IMG/VR virus record: IMGVR_UViG_3300046028_005384
Coordinates: 1 to 32,781 of that record
Source of the DNA: a virus
Length of the DNA: 32,781 nucleotides
Direction: 5' to 3' (one strand)
This document shows positions 1 through 29,316 of this stretch, piece by piece. The notes under the pieces were generated by a model, which saw nothing but the letters and a program-made list of their open reading frames with translations, made no database searches and had not been told where the DNA came from. A program made the position numbers and the translations under genes. Numbering within the stretch: the first letter of the stretch is position 1; each line of letters opens with the position of its first letter.

Positions 1-232
1 GTTGGAACGTTGTAGCAGATTGCTTGCTATAAAGCTCGAATTTTATAGCAGACTGAAAACGATCTACAGGGTCTCGCCAAAACGCATACACATTATCGAA
101 CTCTCCTACTATATCTTTATATAATAGATGCATATCCTCTTCACTTACTAACTCTCCATCTAGAAATACTCTGGCAGATGTAGAGCCGCACTTAGGCACT
201 CCAAGAAGTAAGTTTCTTTGATTTTTTAACAT
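1..232 (-). CDS. Sulfotransferase-like protein (N-terminal part, cut by window edge)
   Basis: The gene starts at the ATG complementary to 230-232 and runs off the left edge, so only 77 residues are visible. Residues 8-17 read LLLGVPKCGST, which matches the 5'-phosphosulfate (PAPS) binding loop of sulfotransferases (PKxGST, here with Cys). Residues near 50-60 read FWRDPVDRFQSA, which matches the 3'-phosphate binding motif (RDPxxRxxS). The two motifs occur in the usual order and are closer together than in many cellular enzymes. Family knowledge: such enzymes move a sulfuryl group from PAPS to sugars, proteins or small molecules. The acceptor cannot be told here. In phages, plausible acceptors are surface glycans or a virion or host component; that is inference. 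The rest of the gene is needed to rule out another P-loop enzyme. Confidence 0.72.
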   Translation of the reverse strand, partial: MLKNQRNLLLGVPKCGSTSARVFLDGELVSEEDMHLLYKDIVGEFDNVYAFWRDPVDRFQSAIKFELYSKQSATTFQ

Positions 233-238
233 TAATTT

Positions 239-640
239 TTATCCACTACCAATTACTTTTTTATAACGATTAACAGTACCATCGGCTTCTTCGACCATGA
301 TCTCATTGAGATTCTTATTCTCAGCAAAGATACGCTGTTCTCCATCAGCAACAATACGACCACCTTCGCGAAGCTTACGCAACACAGCATTTGCAACACC
401 GATATTGTTTCTTCCCGTATCGAGAGCTTCAGTAACGGCTTGTGCGCAATCAAAATACAAGTCGCTGTCTAAAGACCACGACTGGTCGGTGGCATTTGTA
501 AAGTCACCTACACGTCGAAGATAATCTTGGCCGCCATCGACTGCGATCGCACCACATGTGCATTCTACAAAATCATGGCGATGCTTTGAGACAATAAAGT
601 CTCCGCAACTCAAGCATGTCGCTGCGTTTTGAACAATCAT
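239..640 (-). CDS. Conserved phage hypothetical protein with N-terminal zinc-ribbon-like segment
   Basis: This 133-residue protein is not recognised by function. Its N terminus has a CxxC pair (residues 9 and 12) followed by His-rich residues and a CxC pair near 28-30 (ECTCGAIAVDGG), a pattern that suggests a small zinc-binding or treble-clef-like segment. Short proteins with this kind of Cys-rich head ending in a GGxxYxRRVG-like sequence are common in phages, with unknown role. The second half is charged and has no membrane segment. It overlaps the SWIM protein gene upstream by 4 bases (ATGA), so the two are probably translated together, and it lies 6 bases before the sulfotransferase gene. 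Confidence 0.75.
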   Translation of the reverse strand: MIVQNAATCLSCGDFIVSKHRHDFVECTCGAIAVDGGQDYLRRVGDFTNATDQSWSLDSDLYFDCAQAVTEALDTGRNNIGVANAVLRKLREGGRIVADGEQRIFAENKNLNEIMVEEADGTVNRYKKVIGSG

Positions 641-9880: not shown

Positions 9881-10324
9881 TCACCCAGTAGGCGTGACGG
9901 TTTTATTTATCAGATAAAGTTGAATACCTGCTTCTTGAAGCATCATTTTTGTGATATCCCAGTGAAAATGTTCAACATCTTCTGCTGGTTCATACGATAC
10001 TACCTTCGTAATTCCTTTCTGAATGATGCTCTTCGCGCATTCGCTACAAGGCAAAAGAGGACTATAAAGCGTACAACCTTCGACAGACAGCGGAGCATTG
10101 TCGAGTGCATTCCGTTCGGCATGAGCTACGAACAAATGCTTCGTCGGTCTATCGTTGTATCTCTCTGCGAGATCTTTCACACCACGAGGAAAGCCATTAA
10201 AACCAAGAGAGACGATACGATTGTGCTTATCTACAATGACGCAGCCTACTTGTGTTCGAGGATCCTTTGACCATGTCGCGACATGATCAGCGAGATCGAG
10301 GAATCGTGCTGCCCATTTGCTCAC
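9881..10324 (-). CDS. Deoxycytidylate (dCMP) deaminase-like protein
   Basis: This 147-residue protein has the zinc-dependent deaminase motifs HAE (H68, E70, in FVAHAERNALDNA) and PCSEC (C93, C96). The N-terminal KDPRTQVGCVIVDKHNRIVSLGFNGFPRG is typical of dCMP deaminases. The reaction makes dUMP from dCMP and feeds dTMP or modified thymidine synthesis, which may matter because a base-modification cluster lies at 28342-32781. It overlaps the cytidylyltransferase upstream by 4 bases. Confidence 0.88.
   Translation of the reverse strand: MSKWAARFLDLADHVATWSKDPRTQVGCVIVDKHNRIVSLGFNGFPRGVKDLAERYNDRPTKHLFVAHAERNALDNAPLSVEGCTLYSPLLPCSECAKSIIQKGITKVVSYEPAEDVEHFHWDITKMMLQEAGIQLYLINKTVTPTG
9904..9911 (-). 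promoter_or_regulatory. Possible late promoter octamer GATAAATA
   Basis: One base off the T4 late consensus TATAAATA, placed inside the end of the deaminase gene and about 57 bases before the Hsp20 start. Weak on its own. Confidence 0.3.
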
Positions 10325-10737
10325 TTCTTTTTCTCCGATTTAACAATACGTTCACGCAAACCAGATGAACTGTAGTTGTGCTTGCGACTGCAGTAGTGAA
10401 TCGGAATGTATAAATCGGATCCTGTAAAATCTGTTCGACCAGAGTAATCAGATCCAAGAAATCGAACATCCCAATCATAACCTGACAATAGGTTGAGTAG
10501 ATCTTCTTCTGTATCATATGGAATGATCTGATCCACATATTTGCAGGCATTAACCTGAATAAACCGCTCGGACAACGCCTGAACTGGCTTGTTTTTCTCA
10601 GGTCGATCGATTGTAGGATCTGATTGTAGAGCCACGACCAAACGATCACAGTTTTCCTTTGCTTCAGTCAACATCAAGATATGACCTGCATGAAACAAAT
10701 CAAAACAACTTGCTACGATGCCTACGCGTTCAGTCAT
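10321..10737 (-). CDS. Glycerol-3-phosphate-type cytidylyltransferase
   Basis: This 138-residue nucleotidyltransferase has the HxGH motif as FHAGH (H16, H19), the GIVASCFDLFHAGH opening of the TagD group and a C-terminal NYSSSGLRERI that resembles the family RTxGISTTxLKxRI site. It would join CMP to a phosphorylated alcohol or sugar alcohol, giving a CDP-activated precursor for surface polymers. Such genes are common in marine T4-like phages; the in vivo substrate is not known. It overlaps its upstream membrane microprotein and its downstream deaminase by a few bases. Confidence 0.85.
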   Translation of the reverse strand: MTERVGIVASCFDLFHAGHILMLTEAKENCDRLVVALQSDPTIDRPEKNKPVQALSERFIQVNACKYVDQIIPYDTEEDLLNLLSGYDWDVRFLGSDYSGRTDFTGSDLYIPIHYCSRKHNYSSSGLRERIVKSEKKK

Positions 10738-11820: not shown

Positions 11821-13884
11821 TTATTTTGATGTCGCGCGATAAATTCCGTCCCAATCAAGGAGTTTTTTGGACTGAAGATTTTGGATGCGCTGTTCCATCA
11901 TCTCGTAGTATGCATTCAGCTCTTCGTTCCAGCAACGCTTCAGATCTTTTATCAGATTAAGAGCTGCATCCCAATTACCTTGACGATAGAAGTCGAGGAA
12001 CTTTTTATGTAGAAGTTCTCCTGCGCCATCAGCAACATCAAAAATAGTATAGATGCGAGCAGGTTCTGTCTTACCTTTTACGGCAATGAGATCAAGTTCA
12101 ACTACTTGGTATACATCCCTAACCAATTCGGCAGTTTGTGGCCCGACGACAAGTTTGACCCCATAAGGCTTGGATTGACCTTCCAAACGAGCAGCCAAAT
12201 TAACGCCATCACCCAGGCAAGTATAGTCAAAACGCTGAGTACTGCCCATATTGCCAACAACCACAGTGGCAGTGTTAATACCAAGACCCATCCCAAAAGC
12301 GGGTATGCCTTCTCTTTCAACTTCTTCATTAAATATCTCCAGGTCTTTTAGCATCTGAAAGGATGTTCTCACTGCATCTAATGCATGCTGTTTGTTATCG
12401 AGTGGCGCATTCCAGAATGCCATCTGTGCATCACCAATATACTTATCTAACGTCCCATTGTTTTCAAGAATTGCTCTTGTCATGACTGTCATATAACGAT
12501 TCATGATTGATGTGAGGCCTTGGACATCTTCTCCGTAGTGTTCAGAAATTGTAGTAAAGCCTCGAACGTCAGTGAACATAATCGAAAGCTCTCTTGATTC
12601 TCCGCCGAGTTTCAAGAGGTCTGGTTGTCTTTGCAATCTCGCAACCAGATCTGGACTCAGATATGTGCCAAACTGTTTCTTAATCTGCTGCTTCTGAAGG
12701 AATTCAGAGATAAACTTTACGGTATAAATATGCATGTAGATGATAGCGATGGCCATTACGTTAAACGTCACATCTAACAAGATTCCTTTACTCGCGAATA
12801 AATACATCGGTAAATAAAGGTATCCACCTAGAATCAAACCTATCCAAACGATAGAGTATTTTAATCGAGAGATAATGATCAATGACAGAGCTAAAACAAG
12901 TAGAGCAGCCAAATCTACAAGCTGAGTCCAATTCGGAATCGAAACAGAATCACCATTTATCAGAGTCTCAAGAATACTCGCCTGGAGCTGATGGGGATGC
13001 TGCGCACCTGACGGAGTCGCTACGGGATTACTTACTCCAGCTGCAGTCACGCCGAGAATCACGATTTTACCTGTCAGATCAGGCAAAGGACTCGCATCAA
13101 TTTCGTATGACTGGAATCGATAGTTCGGATTGATGAACACTCTTCCATATTCGTCTGTTTTAATTGTTTCAAAAGAAGGAATTCGTAATGCTTCAACCCC
13201 AGTCTGATTTATCTTGGCTTGATACGAAGAGTCTCCTGCAGCTACACGCAGCATCTCTAGAGCAAATGCGGGATAGTATTCGCCTGATGACTCAGATAGA
13301 AGAGGAACTCGCCTTACAACCCCATCAGTCTCGGGTAGGGTTGACGTTATCCCAACACCGGCTGCGGCTTCTTGAAGAACTGAGACATTACTTAGAACGC
13401 ATGGGTATTGAGGAAGAAATTCAGTTGCTTCTCCATCGCCGATTACGGCAACGCCTGTTTTCCGAATTGTCGCACTTGCCCGAGAGCAAGAATCACTCAC
13501 AGTCTGACTGAGAACGACTGGATATTTGTTTAAGCTACTCGCAAGAACTCTATCAGTACCCATCCGATCAGGCTCAGGCATAAGTATAGTGCTGCCAACA
13601 AGAGCAGCCCCTCTGCTATAGACATCATCCAAAATTTTAGCGTGGACTTCGCGCGGGAAAGGCCACTGGCCATATTTTTCAATTGATTTCTCCCCTAAAT
13701 TAATGACTACAATCTGCTCAGATTGTTTTGCTTTATCAAGCATGATATAGTCATAGAATTTAAGACGAGTCGCTTCAACTAAATACGGATCTTGTAATTT
13801 AAAAGTAAGTAATAGTGCAAATGTAAAAAGAGCAAGCCATGGGCTCAATAGAATCTTTTTAATTTTTTGTGTAAGTATATCCAT
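11821..13884 (-). CDS. CHASE2 sensor fused to class III adenylate/guanylate cyclase
   Basis: This 687-residue membrane protein has transmembrane helix 1 (about 13-30), a periplasmic CHASE2 sensor (about 31-310), helices near 322-340, 344-363 and 369-387, and a class III cyclase domain (about 430-615). The catalytic residues look intact: metal aspartates D439 (FTDVRGF) and D485 (KYIGDAQMAFW), base-contact lysine K481, and the transition-state pair N562 and R566 (GDGVNLAARLEG). The sequence is of the bacterial CHASE2-cyclase type that most often makes cAMP. Cellular relatives are often encoded beside FecR-domain proteins, and here the FecR gene is two genes upstream. It starts inside the last 26 bases of the curlin-repeat gene, so it is the distal gene of the curli-type operon. 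A phage copy could raise cAMP in response to a periplasmic signal; that is inference. Confidence 0.92.
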   Translation of the reverse strand: MDILTQKIKKILLSPWLALFTFALLLTFKLQDPYLVEATRLKFYDYIMLDKAKQSEQIVVINLGEKSIEKYGQWPFPREVHAKILDDVYSRGAALVGSTILMPEPDRMGTDRVLASSLNKYPVVLSQTVSDSCSRASATIRKTGVAVIGDGEATEFLPQYPCVLSNVSVLQEAAAGVGITSTLPETDGVVRRVPLLSESSGEYYPAFALEMLRVAAGDSSYQAKINQTGVEALRIPSFETIKTDEYGRVFINPNYRFQSYEIDASPLPDLTGKIVILGVTAAGVSNPVATPSGAQHPHQLQASILETLINGDSVSIPNWTQLVDLAALLVLALSLIIISRLKYSIVWIGLILGGYLYLPMYLFASKGILLDVTFNVMAIAIIYMHIYTVKFISEFLQKQQIKKQFGTYLSPDLVARLQRQPDLLKLGGESRELSIMFTDVRGFTTISEHYGEDVQGLTSIMNRYMTVMTRAILENNGTLDKYIGDAQMAFWNAPLDNKQHALDAVRTSFQMLKDLEIFNEEVEREGIPAFGMGLGINTATVVVGNMGSTQRFDYTCLGDGVNLAARLEGQSKPYGVKLVVGPQTAELVRDVYQVVELDLIAVKGKTEPARIYTIFDVADGAGELLHKKFLDFYRQGNWDAALNLIKDLKRCWNEELNAYYEMMEQRIQNLQSKKLLDWDGIYRATSK

Positions 13885-15319
13885 TACAAGGTCCGGTCGT
13901 ACATGTGATTGACATTAAGACTGAGTCAGTAGCACTCGCAACAGTTTGCGATACAGTGACTCCAATTCCAGGATTATTTATTATTAGTTTAAACAGCTTC
14001 TGCGCTGCACCAGATTGGGTGATGTTTGCATTCAATCCTCCATACGGCGCGCTGATATCAAGGAAATGATTACCAGTTCCTTGTTGAAGAGTCGTGACAA
14101 CATTTGAGTTACCCAAGATGTTGAAGAACGCAGACTTTCCACCAGCATCTTTTTGCTGAGCAGTCAGTTGATTTCCTGTTCCATTTATTACCAACTCTGC
14201 ATACTTGCCATTATATTGCTGAGTCAGAGATACAGTGTTGTTGTTTCCTGTCACAGATACTTCAGCAAGATTGTTTCCAAGAACTGCAGCTGCAGTGCCT
14301 TGATTGATAGTAATAGCGTTGTTGCTACCGTTGATCAACATCGATTGAGAACCATTCACACCTCTGATAGCGTTAAACCTTGAGAACTGTTCAATGTTGA
14401 CGGTGTTATTATCACCAATGTTTTGAATGTAAATCGAGTTGCTTGCAATAGCATTTGTCTGACCAAGCTTAATAGTTTGATTAGTGGCAATTGATGTAGT
14501 TGGATATGTTGGTTCTGCAGGAGGCGGAGGTGGAGCAGTCGGCGCCGAAGATCCTTCGTTAGGTGCAACAGGAGCAAACGTAGTACCATTCAGTGCTGTA
14601 GCGCCTTGCAACTGATCGATGAACAAGATAGGAGATAGCGCGGTATCGCCAAGATTGAAAGACGAGAAGCCAAGCATATAGTTGCCATCTGCTGGAACTG
14701 TGAACACAGCAACCTGCCATCCAGTAGCACCATATGAATTGGTCGAGTAGTTGCCCGTTCCAGGATTCGTAAATCCTAATAGCGCAAAGTTCTGTGTTTG
14801 ACCGTTAAGCGTTGGCGTTCCTGGTCCACCTGTCAAGGTGATGAGAGAACCGTCGTTATACGGAACATAGTCTGTCGACAGGTACTGCCAACCAAATGAG
14901 TATGTAATCCCTGCTTGTAGGAATACTGTTCGACTGACGGAAGAAGCGTTCGTAGGATTCATCGATCCGTTCGAATAGATCGTATTACGAATAGATGTGA
15001 TGTCTGAAGAGGCAAGGCCGAGAGTCGTCATCGCAGTGTTGAATTGCGGAGAATTTCCTCCTGCTTGAACCGATAGCATGTACGATCCATACGGAGTAAT
15101 CGTCCAACATTTGCCACCGCCCGGGCAATAGTTCTGCATACCAGTCGTCACTTGTACGCCGCTACCGTTATCACTCCATGACGTACGAAGTGTAGTAGAT
15201 CCATTAGAAGCTGTCCAGCCGCCATAGTTTCCATCTTCAAAACCATAGTTCGAAGGAGTCTGGGCGTTAGCTAATGATCCCCACATTAACATCATCAATG
15301 CTAAGATTAACTTCTTCAT
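13859..15319 (-). CDS. Secreted curlin-repeat protein with N-terminal jelly-roll-like domain
   Basis: This 486-residue protein has a signal peptide (MKKLILALMMLMWGSLANA, cut near 19-20). Residues 20-245 are beta-rich and Gly/Asn/Thr-rich with one Cys pair (C65, C71), resembling a carbohydrate-binding or PEP-CTERM-type sandwich (YGFEDGNYGGW start, FTVPADGNYMLGF and ILFIDQL late). A proline-rich linker (APTAPPPPPAEPTYP, about 258-274) leads to 200 residues of curlin-like repeats with N-x-x-x-I-x-Q or G-N-N-N-x-V-x-x-x-Q steps. The protein is probably exported by CsgG and forms or caps a surface fibre, with the head displayed. It overlaps the FecR stop by 4 bases. It could instead be a single-chain adhesin. 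Confidence 0.78.
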   Translation of the reverse strand: MKKLILALMMLMWGSLANAQTPSNYGFEDGNYGGWTASNGSTTLRTSWSDNGSGVQVTTGMQNYCPGGGKCWTITPYGSYMLSVQAGGNSPQFNTAMTTLGLASSDITSIRNTIYSNGSMNPTNASSVSRTVFLQAGITYSFGWQYLSTDYVPYNDGSLITLTGGPGTPTLNGQTQNFALLGFTNPGTGNYSTNSYGATGWQVAVFTVPADGNYMLGFSSFNLGDTALSPILFIDQLQGATALNGTTFAPVAPNEGSSAPTAPPPPPAEPTYPTTSIATNQTIKLGQTNAIASNSIYIQNIGDNNTVNIEQFSRFNAIRGVNGSQSMLINGSNNAITINQGTAAAVLGNNLAEVSVTGNNNTVSLTQQYNGKYAELVINGTGNQLTAQQKDAGGKSAFFNILGNSNVVTTLQQGTGNHFLDISAPYGGLNANITQSGAAQKLFKLIINNPGIGVTVSQTVASATDSVLMSITCTTGPCNGYTYTKN

Positions 15320-16452
15320 CTTGCACCTGATTCTTGTATTACGGTAATGTTGCCTTGAGGTCTACCAGTTCCAGATGAAGTCCACTTATCGTCCATAAAA
15401 TTATACACATCTACAATGTTATTCTGAGAAGAAACAACTTGCACTTCTGTATCTTTCGGTAACCATATCACAACAGCTTGATTTTTATCTTCAGATAATC
15501 TAGCATAAAACCAACCAATTTGTTGCATCTTCTTGAAAATAGGAGACACGTTTGTATAGACAGTTTCTGTTGGTATGTTTCCAGAATTATATTCGGCATA
15601 GATTTCTTGGAGTTCTTGCTGATTGGGCAATCGAACAGTAGCTACAGTAACTTCCTCATTACTATCTGACCCAGTATTAGGATCTTGGTTGTCGTCAGAT
15701 GCCGCTTTTGCAGGATTGACAAACTTCTTAAGCGCTTCGCGAGCAGCAGTGATCAGTGATTGACCGTCATCAGTTTCGAGAGGAGAGATTTGAATATTGT
15801 TATCCATACCCTTCATCGAAGGATTAATGACAACAGGCGGCGCAGGAGGAGCATAAGAATTCTCGACCATCGTTGCTTGGAACGGCTGAGTCAGAGTTAC
15901 GATGCCCGCAGCAGTGATCACGTCGATAGCTCCTGAAGGGCATTCGAAGTTAATCTTTGTAATATCTTTATCGTTGTAGCATTCAGGAACAAGAACGACA
16001 GTCGATCTGCCTGCTTCGTCAACAGACATGACAAAATCTGTACCTCTTACAGCAATCGTCGCAGTCGGTGTACGTATACCAACACCCTTTGAATTTCCCT
16101 TTGCGATCGCGCCAGAAGTATATCTTGCCGTTCCTAAGGCAAGCTTCAGGCCAATCTTGCCTTTACTCTTGTTGTTTCCATCATATACGAAGTCGTCGAT
16201 GACTAGCCGTGAATTCTGTGTAATGTTCACAGTGGTGGCATCGACGAATCGAATCTTAAATTTACCTTGAGAATTGGTCGACACAGTATCGTTCTTCTCG
16301 ATACTCGAGCCTTTAACAGCAGGTGCAACCTTTGCACCACGCTTTACAGAACCTCCACCCTGAAATTCTGATATCGATCCCACACCTGCAAAGGCGGGAA
16401 CCGATATCAGAAAGAGTGCATTAATGGCCAGTTTTAATATTAAACGTACCAT
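15316..16452 (-). CDS. FecR-domain periplasmic protein
   Basis: This 378-residue protein has a signal peptide (MVRLILKLAINALFLISVPAFA) and a FecR domain (about 25-170), with GSVKRG, NDTVSTNSQGKFKIRFVDATTVNI and IRTPTATIAVRGTDFVMSVDEAG as the typical strands. A disordered acidic stretch and a C-terminal region (about 270-378) of unknown fold follow. Cellular FecR-domain proteins either relay periplasmic signals or, in the free-standing form seen here, sit beside CHASE2 cyclases and surface-protein exporters. The start overlaps the curlin-repeat gene by 32 bases. It is a reasonable partner of the cyclase sensor; this is inference. Confidence 0.85.
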   Translation of the reverse strand: MVRLILKLAINALFLISVPAFAGVGSISEFQGGGSVKRGAKVAPAVKGSSIEKNDTVSTNSQGKFKIRFVDATTVNITQNSRLVIDDFVYDGNNKSKGKIGLKLALGTARYTSGAIAKGNSKGVGIRTPTATIAVRGTDFVMSVDEAGRSTVVLVPECYNDKDITKINFECPSGAIDVITAAGIVTLTQPFQATMVENSYAPPAPPVVINPSMKGMDNNIQISPLETDDGQSLITAAREALKKFVNPAKAASDDNQDPNTGSDSNEEVTVATVRLPNQQELQEIYAEYNSGNIPTETVYTNVSPIFKKMQQIGWFYARLSEDKNQAVVIWLPKDTEVQVVSSQNNIVDVYNFMDDKWTSSGTGRPQGNITVIQESGAR

Positions 16453-17194
16453 TTGAACCCGCCGAGTTAATATTGATTACGGTTTCAGAAGCTCCGTACT
16501 GTTGGGTTGTAATGGTGTTCAGTGTACCTGTGAGGTTCACATACAGAGAATGGCCGAATGTTCCGCCGAGACCTGTTTGTGTCACGTCGAAGTCATTGTA
16601 ATCACCAGTCACGAGAATGGTTTGAGTTGCGTTAGGTGAGAGTGCATCGATATTGAATGCATTGTTATCACCAGTGACATCCATCGAGTTACGAATGTTT
16701 TCGCCAGAACCGCGAAATGTAAGAGCATTTGAATTGCCAGTAAATTTCGCATTCAGATCAAACTTATTACATATGGCATCGCCTTGTAGTACACCGCAAC
16801 GAATGTCTGCAGTATTCAGATTGCCGATTTGACGAACTGTTACTGTTGCGATTCCTGTTGCTCCTGTAGCGGAGACCACGCCCATGTAGAGTTGGTTTCC
16901 GTTACCGGTTTGAACAGCGATGACACTTTGATTATCACCTCGTAAATAGATAGGATCATCATTGTCGCCAATGATATTAGCAGTACCAGTTTGAACAACG
17001 TTAACATCTACATTGCCACCTTCTTGATCGATATATACTTTGTTTGTTGTAGCTACTGCACCTGCAGTCACCTCATTCGGTGACGTAGTTACAATTGCTG
17101 GTGGAGTTGGGGCTGTCGGTAGCACGGTTTGTGCAGTCACAGATGTTCCATAAAGAAGAGCAGCTCCAACTAATAAAAACTTACTTAGTTTCAT
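16421..17194 (-). CDS. Curlin-repeat (CsgA/CsgB-like) secreted protein
   Basis: The product is 257 residues. A signal peptide (MKLSKFLLVGAALLYGTSVTAQ) is followed by a short Pro/Thr linker and repeats rich in Asn, Gly and Gln with the alternating I-x-Q-x-G-x-x-N-x-x-x-V pattern of curli subunits (for example VDVNVVQTGTANIIGDN, VIAVQTGNGNQLY, VTVRQIGNLNTADI). I chose the ATG at 17192-17194 with AAAAGGAAA about 7 bases upstream; the longer frame lies inside csgG. It would be the main fibre subunit or nucleator exported through the CsgG pore. It has two cysteines, unusual for curlins (residues in IRCGVLQGDAICNKF). Confidence 0.82.
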   Translation of the reverse strand: MKLSKFLLVGAALLYGTSVTAQTVLPTAPTPPAIVTTSPNEVTAGAVATTNKVYIDQEGGNVDVNVVQTGTANIIGDNDDPIYLRGDNQSVIAVQTGNGNQLYMGVVSATGATGIATVTVRQIGNLNTADIRCGVLQGDAICNKFDLNAKFTGNSNALTFRGSGENIRNSMDVTGDNNAFNIDALSPNATQTILVTGDYNDFDVTQTGLGGTFGHSLYVNLTGTLNTITTQQYGASETVININSAGSNGTFNIKTGH

Positions 17195-18005
17195 TTGTCG
17201 TTTCCTTTTGCTTGAATCTCCATAGTCCTTTACGTTCACCGTCCTTGATTAATTCCACGACTGCCGTTTCTATGGCTGAACGGATCGCATAACTACCGGC
17301 TTCATTTGATGTTTGTTGTCCATCAAATTCAAAAGCTTTTGTTCCCATATCGAAAAACTTAAATGCTGTGATTCCCTCGGACGTAGAGAGTAAATTCTTC
17401 TCAACGGTGACAGAAGTTAAAACTTCACCTGTCTGAACCGAAACGAGTCGCATACTAATAGTAACTTGATCTTCTGAATACTGTTGATAAGGACCGATTC
17501 CGAGGAATCTTGCGCCGTTACCACCAGTTTTGGTATTTGAACTATAGTCAATAATACCACCTTCAAGGATGATACCTGCAACCATCAAAGGAGGAAGCGG
17601 TTCTGCGCTTTCGCCGAGTTGTTGCTCTCTCATCTGTCTTACGAGCTGACGTTCTTTGATCAAAGAATCAATGCCTACACGCTCGACTGGTTTAAACCAT
17701 TTGCCATCGCCAGCATCTGCCAATGTTTTGATAACATAAGCGTCTGCGCCTTGAGTGACGGCTGTCGAGAAACTGGCTTGAGTAGCAGAAGGTTTGCGTT
17801 GTCCTGTTCTATCAGTGAACGAGTAGATGGCAATCGGAATTACCTGACCATCAAGTTCTGGTAGAGTTCTGAACAACTTAGGATTTGCAAATCTTTCTAC
17901 TTCAGCATCTTCTCTTGCGAGATATGACTGATTGAGATGAGGATGCACTCCTCCTGCGCAAGCGGTTGTAATAAGAAGTAATGGAAGTAATAAAAGCTTT
18001 TTCAT
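17181..18005 (-). CDS. csgG: CsgG-type curli secretion lipoprotein
   Basis: This 274-residue protein has a lipoprotein signal (MKKLLLLPLLLITTAC with the lipid cysteine at 16) and the CsgG domain: PIAIYSFTDRTGQRKPS, LIKERQLVRQMREQ, LMVAGIILEGGIIDYSSNTKTGG and QYSEDQVTISMRLVSVQTGEVL. Family knowledge: CsgG forms a nonameric outer-membrane channel that secretes curli subunits (type VIII secretion). Length matches E. coli CsgG (277). It is 9 bases downstream of csgF and overlaps the curlin-repeat gene by 14 bases. No csgE is seen in the window. Confidence 0.92.
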   Translation of the reverse strand: MKKLLLLPLLLITTACAGGVHPHLNQSYLAREDAEVERFANPKLFRTLPELDGQVIPIAIYSFTDRTGQRKPSATQASFSTAVTQGADAYVIKTLADAGDGKWFKPVERVGIDSLIKERQLVRQMREQQLGESAEPLPPLMVAGIILEGGIIDYSSNTKTGGNGARFLGIGPYQQYSEDQVTISMRLVSVQTGEVLTSVTVEKNLLSTSEGITAFKFFDMGTKAFEFDGQQTSNEAGSYAIRSAIETAVVELIKDGERKGLWRFKQKETTNETK

Positions 18006-18014
18006 GACTTCTCC

Positions 18015-18455
18015 TTAAAATGCAAATGTTGCGATAGGAACAGTCACGACTGTCGTATTACCAAATTTATCGACAACTGTCAACGTCACAGATGTACCAG
18101 TCTTTACATAGCTAATCGTATTACCATCAAGATTAAACATACCTTGTTGAGCAGAACCTTCGGCAAACAGATTGTTCGACAATTGAGTGGCTAGCTGAGC
18201 ATATACCTGCGAGGTAAACAGCGCCATAAACTTTGCAAGCGGAGTGTTTGAAGCTTCAGCTCTTGCAAGAGCAATCTTTGCGGCTTCGGCATCTCTAATT
18301 GCCTGCTCACGAGAACGTTCTTGTGCATCGATTGACTGCACATGTGACGACCATCCATATCCATTGAAGGATGGACTTTTAAACTGTTGTACGAGAGGAT
18401 CAGCTTTTACTGGGCTGCTTAGTATCAGAGCTAGCAGGAGCAGACTCTTTTTCAT
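18015..18455 (-). CDS. csgF: CsgF-like curli assembly protein
   Basis: This 146-residue protein has a signal peptide (MKKSLLLLALILSSPVKA) and a mature N terminus LVQQFKSPSFNGYGWSSH, which matches the N-terminal CsgF segment that plugs into the CsgG channel mouth (F-x-NPxFGG type). The rest is helical (QERSREQAIRDAEAAKIALARAEA), then strands. In cells CsgF sits at the surface and couples CsgG to fibre nucleation. Length agrees with E. coli CsgF (138). AAGAAGGA lies 7 bases upstream. Its first 56 bases overlap a small gene in another frame. Confidence 0.88.
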   Translation of the reverse strand: MKKSLLLLALILSSPVKADPLVQQFKSPSFNGYGWSSHVQSIDAQERSREQAIRDAEAAKIALARAEASNTPLAKFMALFTSQVYAQLATQLSNNLFAEGSAQQGMFNLDGNTISYVKTGTSVTLTVVDKFGNTTVVTVPIATFAF

Positions 18456-18552
18456 CTTTCTTTTCCTTCTTTAAAGGCATATCTTTGTTTGAAGAAAGAC
18501 TAAATTCAAGCGAGAAGATCTTAATGATTTCAATCTTTAGATTTATGTTCAC
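18400..18552 (-). CDS. 50-residue overlapping microprotein (GTG start)
   Basis: A GTG at 18550-18552 has a strong AAAGGAAG 6-7 bases upstream and opens 50 codons: MNINLKIEIIKIFSLEF at the start and a Lys/Glu-rich then Ser/Pro tail (KKEKKDEKESAPASS). It overlaps the end of the upstream membrane protein by 23 bases and the start of csgF by 56 bases, both in different frames. The spacing of the ribosome site is the main argument. Function unknown. Confidence 0.55.
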   Translation of the reverse strand: MNINLKIEIIKIFSLEFSLSSNKDMPLKKEKKDEKESAPASSDTKQPSKS

Positions 18553-18793
18553 TGTGATCTTCCTTTATCTGCAATACAACACTCACCTTCTGGTTCAATC
18601 GAATAAGATCATTATCCAACATACGGACACGATCAATCAAAGCAATTAAAATCCCATTGGTTTCGCCAATCAATGGCATTAGTTTATCTGTGACAAACTT
18701 ATAAATGAACCACACAAAATAACCCATGCCGACCGCTGCGACAATTGGAAATCCGTATTGTTTTACAAGTTCTGCAATGAGTTGTGGATCCAT
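18530..18793 (-). CDS. Single-helix membrane protein, paralogue 2
   Basis: This 87-residue protein has a transmembrane segment YGFPIVAAVGMGYFVWFIYKFV (about 14-35) and a helical tail ILIALIDRVRMLDNDLIRLNQKVSVVLQIK that could form a coiled coil. It shares the pattern GFPIxAA...GxFVxF...GI...LxxRVxxMxxDxIR...VS with the gene just upstream, so the two are paralogues. They may be holin-like or oligomeric membrane scaffolds; the position at the head of the curli-type operon is notable. The start overlaps the upstream stop by one base (TAATG). Confidence 0.72.
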   Translation of the reverse strand: MDPQLIAELVKQYGFPIVAAVGMGYFVWFIYKFVTDKLMPLIGETNGILIALIDRVRMLDNDLIRLNQKVSVVLQIKEDHSEHKSKD

Positions 18794-28341: not shown

Positions 28342-29316
28342 TTATTTGTTTTTACCGAGTGCAGAAGGATCTGCAGTTGCAGCTGCACCGATACGTGCAA
28401 TATCTGGTAGAGAACCACCAAAGACATACGAACCAACGTGCTTCAGTTCCATCCATGGGCAAAGCCATACATGCATACCAGCATTGCGAACCCACTGACA
28501 GAACATGTAATCTTCAGAGAGGTAGCGCTTCGAGTAATCTTTGATCAAACCATTGTTCGGATCTTTCACAAAGTCTACAATCTCTTTTGCTTTTGCTTTT
28601 GGATTCTTTTTCAAGTATTCTTCAAGCTCGGCATTGATGTTCGTACGCTTATGATCGATCGGCGTATCAAAGTAAGCCATGATTTCACGACTACCATCGA
28701 AGTGTTCTGTACGAACGTGATCAGGTTTGTAGAACTGCTGAGGATAAGCTTCTTGAAATTTCTCAAAAGTTTGGCGGCGAATCATCATGAATCCAGTTCC
28801 GGATTCAAGTACTTCGACTGGTTGACCAAGAGCAATCTCTCGGGTTTCACCTGTTGGATTGAAGACGTAATCACCAACAAACTTTTCAAGATCGTTTGGA
28901 TTTTCGTCAGCCATGCCCTTATCGACAGCAAGCTTAATCTTTTCCCAACTGATGCACTTCTTAGGATATGGACCAGCGATGATGTCGTAGTTATCTACTG
29001 ATGGATCAGGATTTTGTAGAGCAAGTAGCGCGATCACGTCATTCGGATTGAATCCAATATCAGAGTCGATGAACATCAAGTGTGTATCGCCTGAACGCAT
29101 GAACTCATCGGCGCAGTAGTTGCGTGCTCGAGTAATCAGAGACTCGTTAAACAAGAAGTAGAATCTGACTTGGATTCCGTAGTGTGTGCAGAGTGCAGAG
29201 AGATCTGCAATCGAACGTGTAAACATACCTGCGCATTGACCGCCATACATTGGTGCGGCGATGAAGAGCTTGCGCTTTCTGAGCTCTTCCATTGGAACAT
29301 TAATTTCAATACCCAT
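28342..29316 (-). CDS. GT-A-fold glycosyltransferase
   Basis: This 324-residue soluble protein has RKLFIAAPMYGGQCAGMF at the start, and FIDSDIGFNPNDV with a DSD (D84, D86) metal/nucleotide-sugar binding motif typical of GT-A glycosyltransferases. A later EDYMFCQWVRNAGMHVWLCPWMELKHVG resembles the acceptor-side end of this family. No membrane segments. Such free-standing enzymes are found in phages with modified DNA and in those that modify surfaces. Its position 3 bases before a DUF3310 gene and next to a PLP enzyme and a probable amino-acid transferase gene makes glucosylation or other sugar decoration of DNA bases a good guess. Confidence 0.82.
   Translation of the reverse strand: MGIEINVPMEELRKRKLFIAAPMYGGQCAGMFTRSIADLSALCTHYGIQVRFYFLFNESLITRARNYCADEFMRSGDTHLMFIDSDIGFNPNDVIALLALQNPDPSVDNYDIIAGPYPKKCISWEKIKLAVDKGMADENPNDLEKFVGDYVFNPTGETREIALGQPVEVLESGTGFMMIRRQTFEKFQEAYPQQFYKPDHVRTEHFDGSREIMAYFDTPIDHKRTNINAELEEYLKKNPKAKAKEIVDFVKDPNNGLIKDYSKRYLSEDYMFCQWVRNAGMHVWLCPWMELKHVGSYVFGGSLPDIARIGAAATADPSALGKNK

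Follow-up and report, generated by a model that had tools for sequence, protein, structure and literature searches.

Accessory sulfotransferases are carried by the OM43 phages and by Synechococcus phage S-SRM01, and their role is called unclear in those sections of the source that deal with them (PMC10580990). Three reports mention further sulfotransferases on viral contigs from estuaries and glaciers (PMC12285232, PMC8290583, PMC13079714), and a fourth mentions one in a coral-associated prophage (PMC11309003). The gene described here resembles those of the OM43 phages and S-SRM01 in being an accessory sulfotransferase of a tailed phage, one of these phages being a T4-like cyanophage; however, the same sections assign their enzymes to Sulfotransfer_3 (PF13469), a different Pfam family (PMC10580990). 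The window, by which we mean the whole stretch of 32,781 bases analysed, is an entire virus record and its sequence stops where that record stops. It encodes a gp43-type polymerase that is about 49% identical to the polymerases of T4-like cyanophages, with that of S-SRM01 among its best matches, in agreement with an earlier note on this DNA that had placed the gene in a T4-like phage.

The earlier note had also regarded sulfotransferases as seldom noted in such phages. Phage sulfotransferases are already in print, as S-SRM01 illustrates, whereas the present branch is absent from 50,697 annotated phage records: tblastn against these records gave no match under E 0.01 for any of five queries (the window fragment, L013, L014, the first gene of L012 and the full protein from contig L002). 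The best match of the window fragment (E 4) was at chance level, as was that of the full protein (E 2), for which there was none under E 1. A text search for the literal wording 'phage sulfotransferase' and five variants found no paper in the collection searched. The gene thus adds a new branch to a class of enzymes already known, and it behaves as ordinary cargo.

The completed gene, its family and its fold

The gene begins with an ATG at window position 232 on the minus strand, and its frame is still open after 77 codons at the contig edge (base 2). A scan of viral contigs recovered L002 (4,916 bases), which is 100% identical to the window across 939 bases, only the first base of L002 differing, and on which the full-length gene (L002:709-1260) encodes 183 aa; residues 52-183 were found identically on L004 and L016. 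Only 6 bases separate the stop codon of the upstream 133-aa gene from the ATG (L002 702 and 709), and on L002 an 88-aa gene begins before the frame ends, so that the sulfotransferase gene is packed as in a transcription unit. It is AT-rich, with a GC content of 0.339 vs 0.426 for the window. Solved sulfotransferases mostly have 247-298 residues in single-domain chains, whereas the phage protein is shorter. The coordinates of all features are collected in Table 1.

Table 1. Features of the window, with predicted roles of the motifs and domain matches of the encoded proteins
Feature	Position in window	Strand	Remarks
Sulfotransferase gene start, first 77 codons	2..232	-	Truncated by contig end; full product 183 aa, L002:709-1260
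PKCGST, residues 13-18, predicted 5'-phosphosulfate-binding loop	179..196	-	K14, G16, S17 invariant in 9/9
RDPVDRFQS, residues 53-61, predicted 3'-phosphate-binding motif	50..76	-	Strand end and helix start
His35, candidate catalytic base	128..130	-	Sole histidine of the 183-aa protein
133-aa neighbour, upstream, no assigned function	239..640	-	Open reading frame
Cytidylyltransferase	10321-10737		PF01467 at 1.2e-12
Glycosyltransferase-like gene	28342-29316		No Pfam match at E 0.01
CHASE2-guanylate/adenylate cyclase	within 11821-18455	-	PF05226 1.2e-38, PF00211 3e-17
486-aa protein, curlin-like look	within 11821-18455	-	No Pfam match
FecR	within 11821-18455	-	Pfam 2.4e-12
Curlin-repeat protein	within 11821-18455	-	PF07012 0.0019, under cut-off
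CsgG	within 11821-18455	-	Pfam 1.6e-51
CsgF	within 11821-18455	-	Pfam 4.6e-17

The nearest relative (L003), a 166-aa form encoded on a related record of 73 kb (G001), shares 116 of 166 aligned residues with the 183-aa protein, and the comparison of the two genes gave a dN/dS of 0.40. Distant relatives with 28-34% identity occur on other viral contigs (L005-L015) and in bacterial genomes, mostly of Sphingomonadales (Novosphingobium, Sandarakinorhabdus, one Erythrobacteraceae and one Sphingomonadaceae assembly), and one more is found on a small contig titled Betaproteobacteria. A test profile built from seven distant relatives only, with the window protein and L003 left out, scored the 183-aa protein at 83.7 bits, the L003 protein at 77.9 bits and the 77-aa window fragment at 39.9 bits (E 2e-10 among 10,003 sequences), while the best of 10,000 shuffles reached 8.1 bits. 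Single-sequence scans with L013, the first gene of L012 and L014 recovered only themselves or a duplicate contig.

Neither the fragment nor the full protein matched any Pfam family at E 10, and the L003 protein scored 13.4 bits against Sulfotransfer_2 (PF03567), below the curated cut-off of 22 bits; L014 (31.2 bits) and the first tandem gene of L012 (30.2 bits) lie above it and match nearly the whole profile. The phage protein has both PAPS motifs; however, it scores under the family threshold, is shorter and cytosolic, and shows no membrane anchor in its sequence. Since it falls below the cut-off, we name it Sulfotransfer_2-like and do not file it as a member. The only PHROG matched by the 77-aa fragment was phrog_3347, of the moron / auxiliary class, and this weakly (E 0.0036, 33 residues). 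The full protein covered 32 of its 219 profile positions (E 0.011), short of a full-length match. This likeness over residues 33-65 (E 0.004-0.02) spans about one sixth of the phage protein, and the 'Galactose-3-O-sulfotransferase' attached to the PHROG is an annotation name. A tandem gene of L012 matched the same PHROG at 5.8e-7. Among the sequences of solved structures, phmmer and profile searches found no sulfotransferase, the matches being at chance level.

Both PAPS-binding motifs that the earlier note had reported in the N-terminal part are present, and the pair never arose when the completed 183-aa sequence was shuffled 200,000 times. The nine-member alignment used here excluded L006, whose frame parts from the others some 110 residues in; L008 and L009, which are near-copies or truncated; L015, which duplicates L014; and the loci on bacterial genomes. 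It contains 24 invariant columns, including K14, G16, S17, Y49-V56, R58, F59, S61, Q111, the FG pair 140-141, I147, P148 and Y171. Within the second motif, R53, D54, P55, V56, R58, F59 and S61 are invariant in 9/9 members, and a histidine lies at position 35, or at most two columns from it, in all nine.

An AlphaFold model computed from this alignment had a mean pLDDT of 79 and a pTM of 0.78, with a pLDDT below 50 in the acceptor-side segment 71-86. In the model, PKCGST follows strand E7-9 and is itself followed by helix H17-23. The 3'-PAP-binding helix, whose absence the earlier note had named as evidence against a sulfotransferase, is predicted in the strand-loop-helix formed by E47-52, RDPVDRFQS and H55-71. 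All 50 listed VIA-align matches were sulfotransferases (residues ~4-181 covered, 155-166 residues aligned) with Z up to 9.4, where, by the tool's own guidance, values of 8-9.4 exceed only moderately what unrelated models can attain and chance arrangements may give values below 8. Among the matches listed, the heparan sulfate N-, 2-O-, 3-O- and 6-O-sulfotransferases came first (Z 8.8-9.4), along with one bacterial sulfotransferase at Z 8.6 and the cytosolic type at Z of at most 8.0; since gaps smaller than 1 are ties, the lean to glycan enzymes is slight. In Foldseek against the PDB the best 13 rows were all sulfotransferases, with a top E of 1.6e-3 (probability 0.98) and no match under E 0.001. 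Support for the sulfotransferase fold is hence moderate rather than strong. Judged by sequence and predicted fold, the product is a small PAPS-dependent sulfotransferase, and the identification first made from the N-terminal part stands for the whole protein.

Genomic settings and mobility

The setting of the gene differs between lineages. It adjoins replication-type genes in the window lineage, where L002 carries no tRNA genes. The L003 copy sits within a tRNA array of 21 genes; the L014/L015 copies, which represent one viral contig, lie inside one of 35 genes (L014 2981-9434). On the 73-kb related record, homologues of the 133-aa and 88-aa genes are located about 11 kb from the sulfotransferase gene and are separated from each other by ~280 bases; other small ORFs there occupy the site that the sulfotransferase gene has in the window lineage. 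The sulfotransferase gene behaves as mobile accessory cargo and is no part of the adjacent replication operon. Between the window phage and the related phage its pS was 0.354, vs 0.508-0.844 for seven other shared genes, the set of eight having been hand-picked from 21 window and six L002/L004 matches. This lowest value suggests that exchange of the gene is more recent than that of the backbone; such a recent transfer appears likely from the sequence comparison but is unproved, because AT-richness can depress synonymous divergence.

In Sphingomonadales-type loci the gene lies directly behind three tail-fibre-type genes in a row. This was the case in 10/10 loci with a readable upstream gene (L005, L006, L007, L010, L011, L029, L030, L031, L034 and L035), the count leaving aside L008 and L009, whose upstream genes were unread, and L032, L033 and L036, in which the sequence is truncated or disrupted close to the gene. 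A 286-aa gene of the tail-fibre set matched long tail fibre PHROGs (best 1.5e-40) and a 463-aa gene a beta-propeller PHROG (6.5e-16). On L012 and L013 the sulfotransferase gene is followed by genes for head-tail adaptor and tail sheath stabiliser proteins, and on L013 a collagen-like ORF and a 454-aa ORF, the latter without a PHROG match, are found immediately upstream.

Two observations were made at these loci. L012, a T4-like contig, carries two different sulfotransferase-type genes in tandem (607-1179 and 1176-1874) beside the head-tail genes. In L006 (5986-6624) the C-terminal half of the sulfotransferase frame is replaced by a sequence that, by eye, resembles the last part of a tail-fibre chaperone domain, and the frame might have arisen by recombination between cargo and fibre gene.

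Proposed role and competing explanations

Our preferred reading, to which we give a probability of roughly 0.7, is that the protein is a small cytosolic Sulfotransfer_2-like sulfotransferase of the carbohydrate type, carried as mobile cargo by a T4-like phage, with a host surface glycan as its most likely acceptor. Taken by itself, the choice of this glycan as the leading candidate target is tentative, at somewhat less than even odds. PAPS would be supplied by the host, since neither APS kinase nor PAPS reductase was found in the 8 fragmentary records (0/8 each); its 5'-phosphosulfate would be held by PKCGST and its 3'-phosphate by RDPVDRFQS. Glycan 2-O- and 6-O-sulfotransferases use a histidine as catalytic base, and by analogy His35 is the likely base for activating the acceptor hydroxyl. 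The latter would belong to a sugar of a host surface-glycan precursor that is linked to a lipid or a nucleotide, and the newly made surface, once sulfated, may serve other phages or the phage's own progeny less well as a receptor. The tail-fibre linkage of the Sphingomonadales copies and the head-tail linkage of the L012/L013 copies were counted in favour of a surface role.

The earlier note had proposed a connection with the cytidylyltransferase and glycosyltransferase genes. In the window these are ~10 and ~28 kb distant, and no glycan genes adjoin the sulfotransferase gene. On the 73-kb related record, which is a fragment, the sulfotransferase gene (at 7.4 kb) and the cytidylyltransferase homologue (at 48.3 kb) are ~40 kb apart, and tblastn found no counterpart of the glycosyltransferase-like gene at E 1e-5. 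We reject the link because neither phage shows genomic linkage. The further suggestion in the earlier note that DNA might be the modified component found no support.

The gene order in the Sphingomonadales-type loci, together with the collagen-like and 454-aa ORFs upstream of the L013 gene, would also fit an enzyme that sulfates the phage's own adhesion device, on a tail-fibre glycan or a tyrosine, and thereby tunes host binding. We consider this doubtful: the linkage to tail fibres is not general, because other lineages have the gene by replication-type genes or in tRNA arrays, the 454-aa ORF lacks a PHROG match, and tail-fibre regions are also common sites of surface-modifying cargo. A broader version, in which the whole family would be a phage tool that sulfates the phage's own fibres or fibre glycans in the infected cell and so shifts host range while the fibre gene stays unchanged, would be compatible with the gene's repeated placement immediately after tail-fibre genes in one lineage and beside structural genes in a second; we judge it distinctly unlikely. 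A small molecule or intracellular component (a metabolite, nucleoside, lipid or defence signal) might likewise be the acceptor, as the small size, the short acceptor-side segment, the location in tRNA arrays or by replication genes and the fold matches to small-molecule enzymes (Z 7-8) would allow. Glycan sulfotransferases match slightly better, though within tied values, and such an acceptor seems unlikely to us.

With 183 aa against 204-239 aa in relatives and a dN/dS that is not very low, the frame could also be a decaying or non-catalytic remnant. This is improbable, given that every cofactor residue is retained, that dN is well below dS and that the C-terminal half is near-identical to L003 across 22 residues. 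A P-loop protein of another type, such as a kinase or small GTPase, was suggested by Rho/Rnd-type GTPases in the Foldseek list (probability at most 0.16). However, the protein has no GKS/T loop and possesses the RDP..R..S motif, its structural matches are sulfotransferases and relatives exceed the Sulfotransfer_2 cut-off, so that another P-loop family, which the earlier note had raised as the alternative, is largely refuted and appears highly improbable.

If the carbohydrate-type sulfotransferase favoured here is active, it would offer a small and easily expressed member of a class of phage enzymes whose role is described as unclear in the sections of the source concerned with them (PMC10580990). 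The branch connects lytic T4-like phages with prophage-like loci of Sphingomonadales and would permit an easy test of host-surface sulfation by phages; otherwise it would be an ordinary accessory gene.

A curli-type gene set in the same phage

The window phage, a T4-like phage, also carries a curli-type gene set on the minus strand (Table 1), part of which has been published: CsgF and CsgG are described for pelagimyophages, without CsgA/CsgB in the portion of the paper that treats them (PMC7029224). The related record has the same set in conserved order (L037, G001:C1:1-20000, positions 13254-18610), with identities to the window of 40% for CsgF, 48% for CsgG, 43% for the FecR-like protein and 77% for the cyclase. 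The curlin-repeat candidates and the adjoining cyclase may be a new part of the phage curli set.
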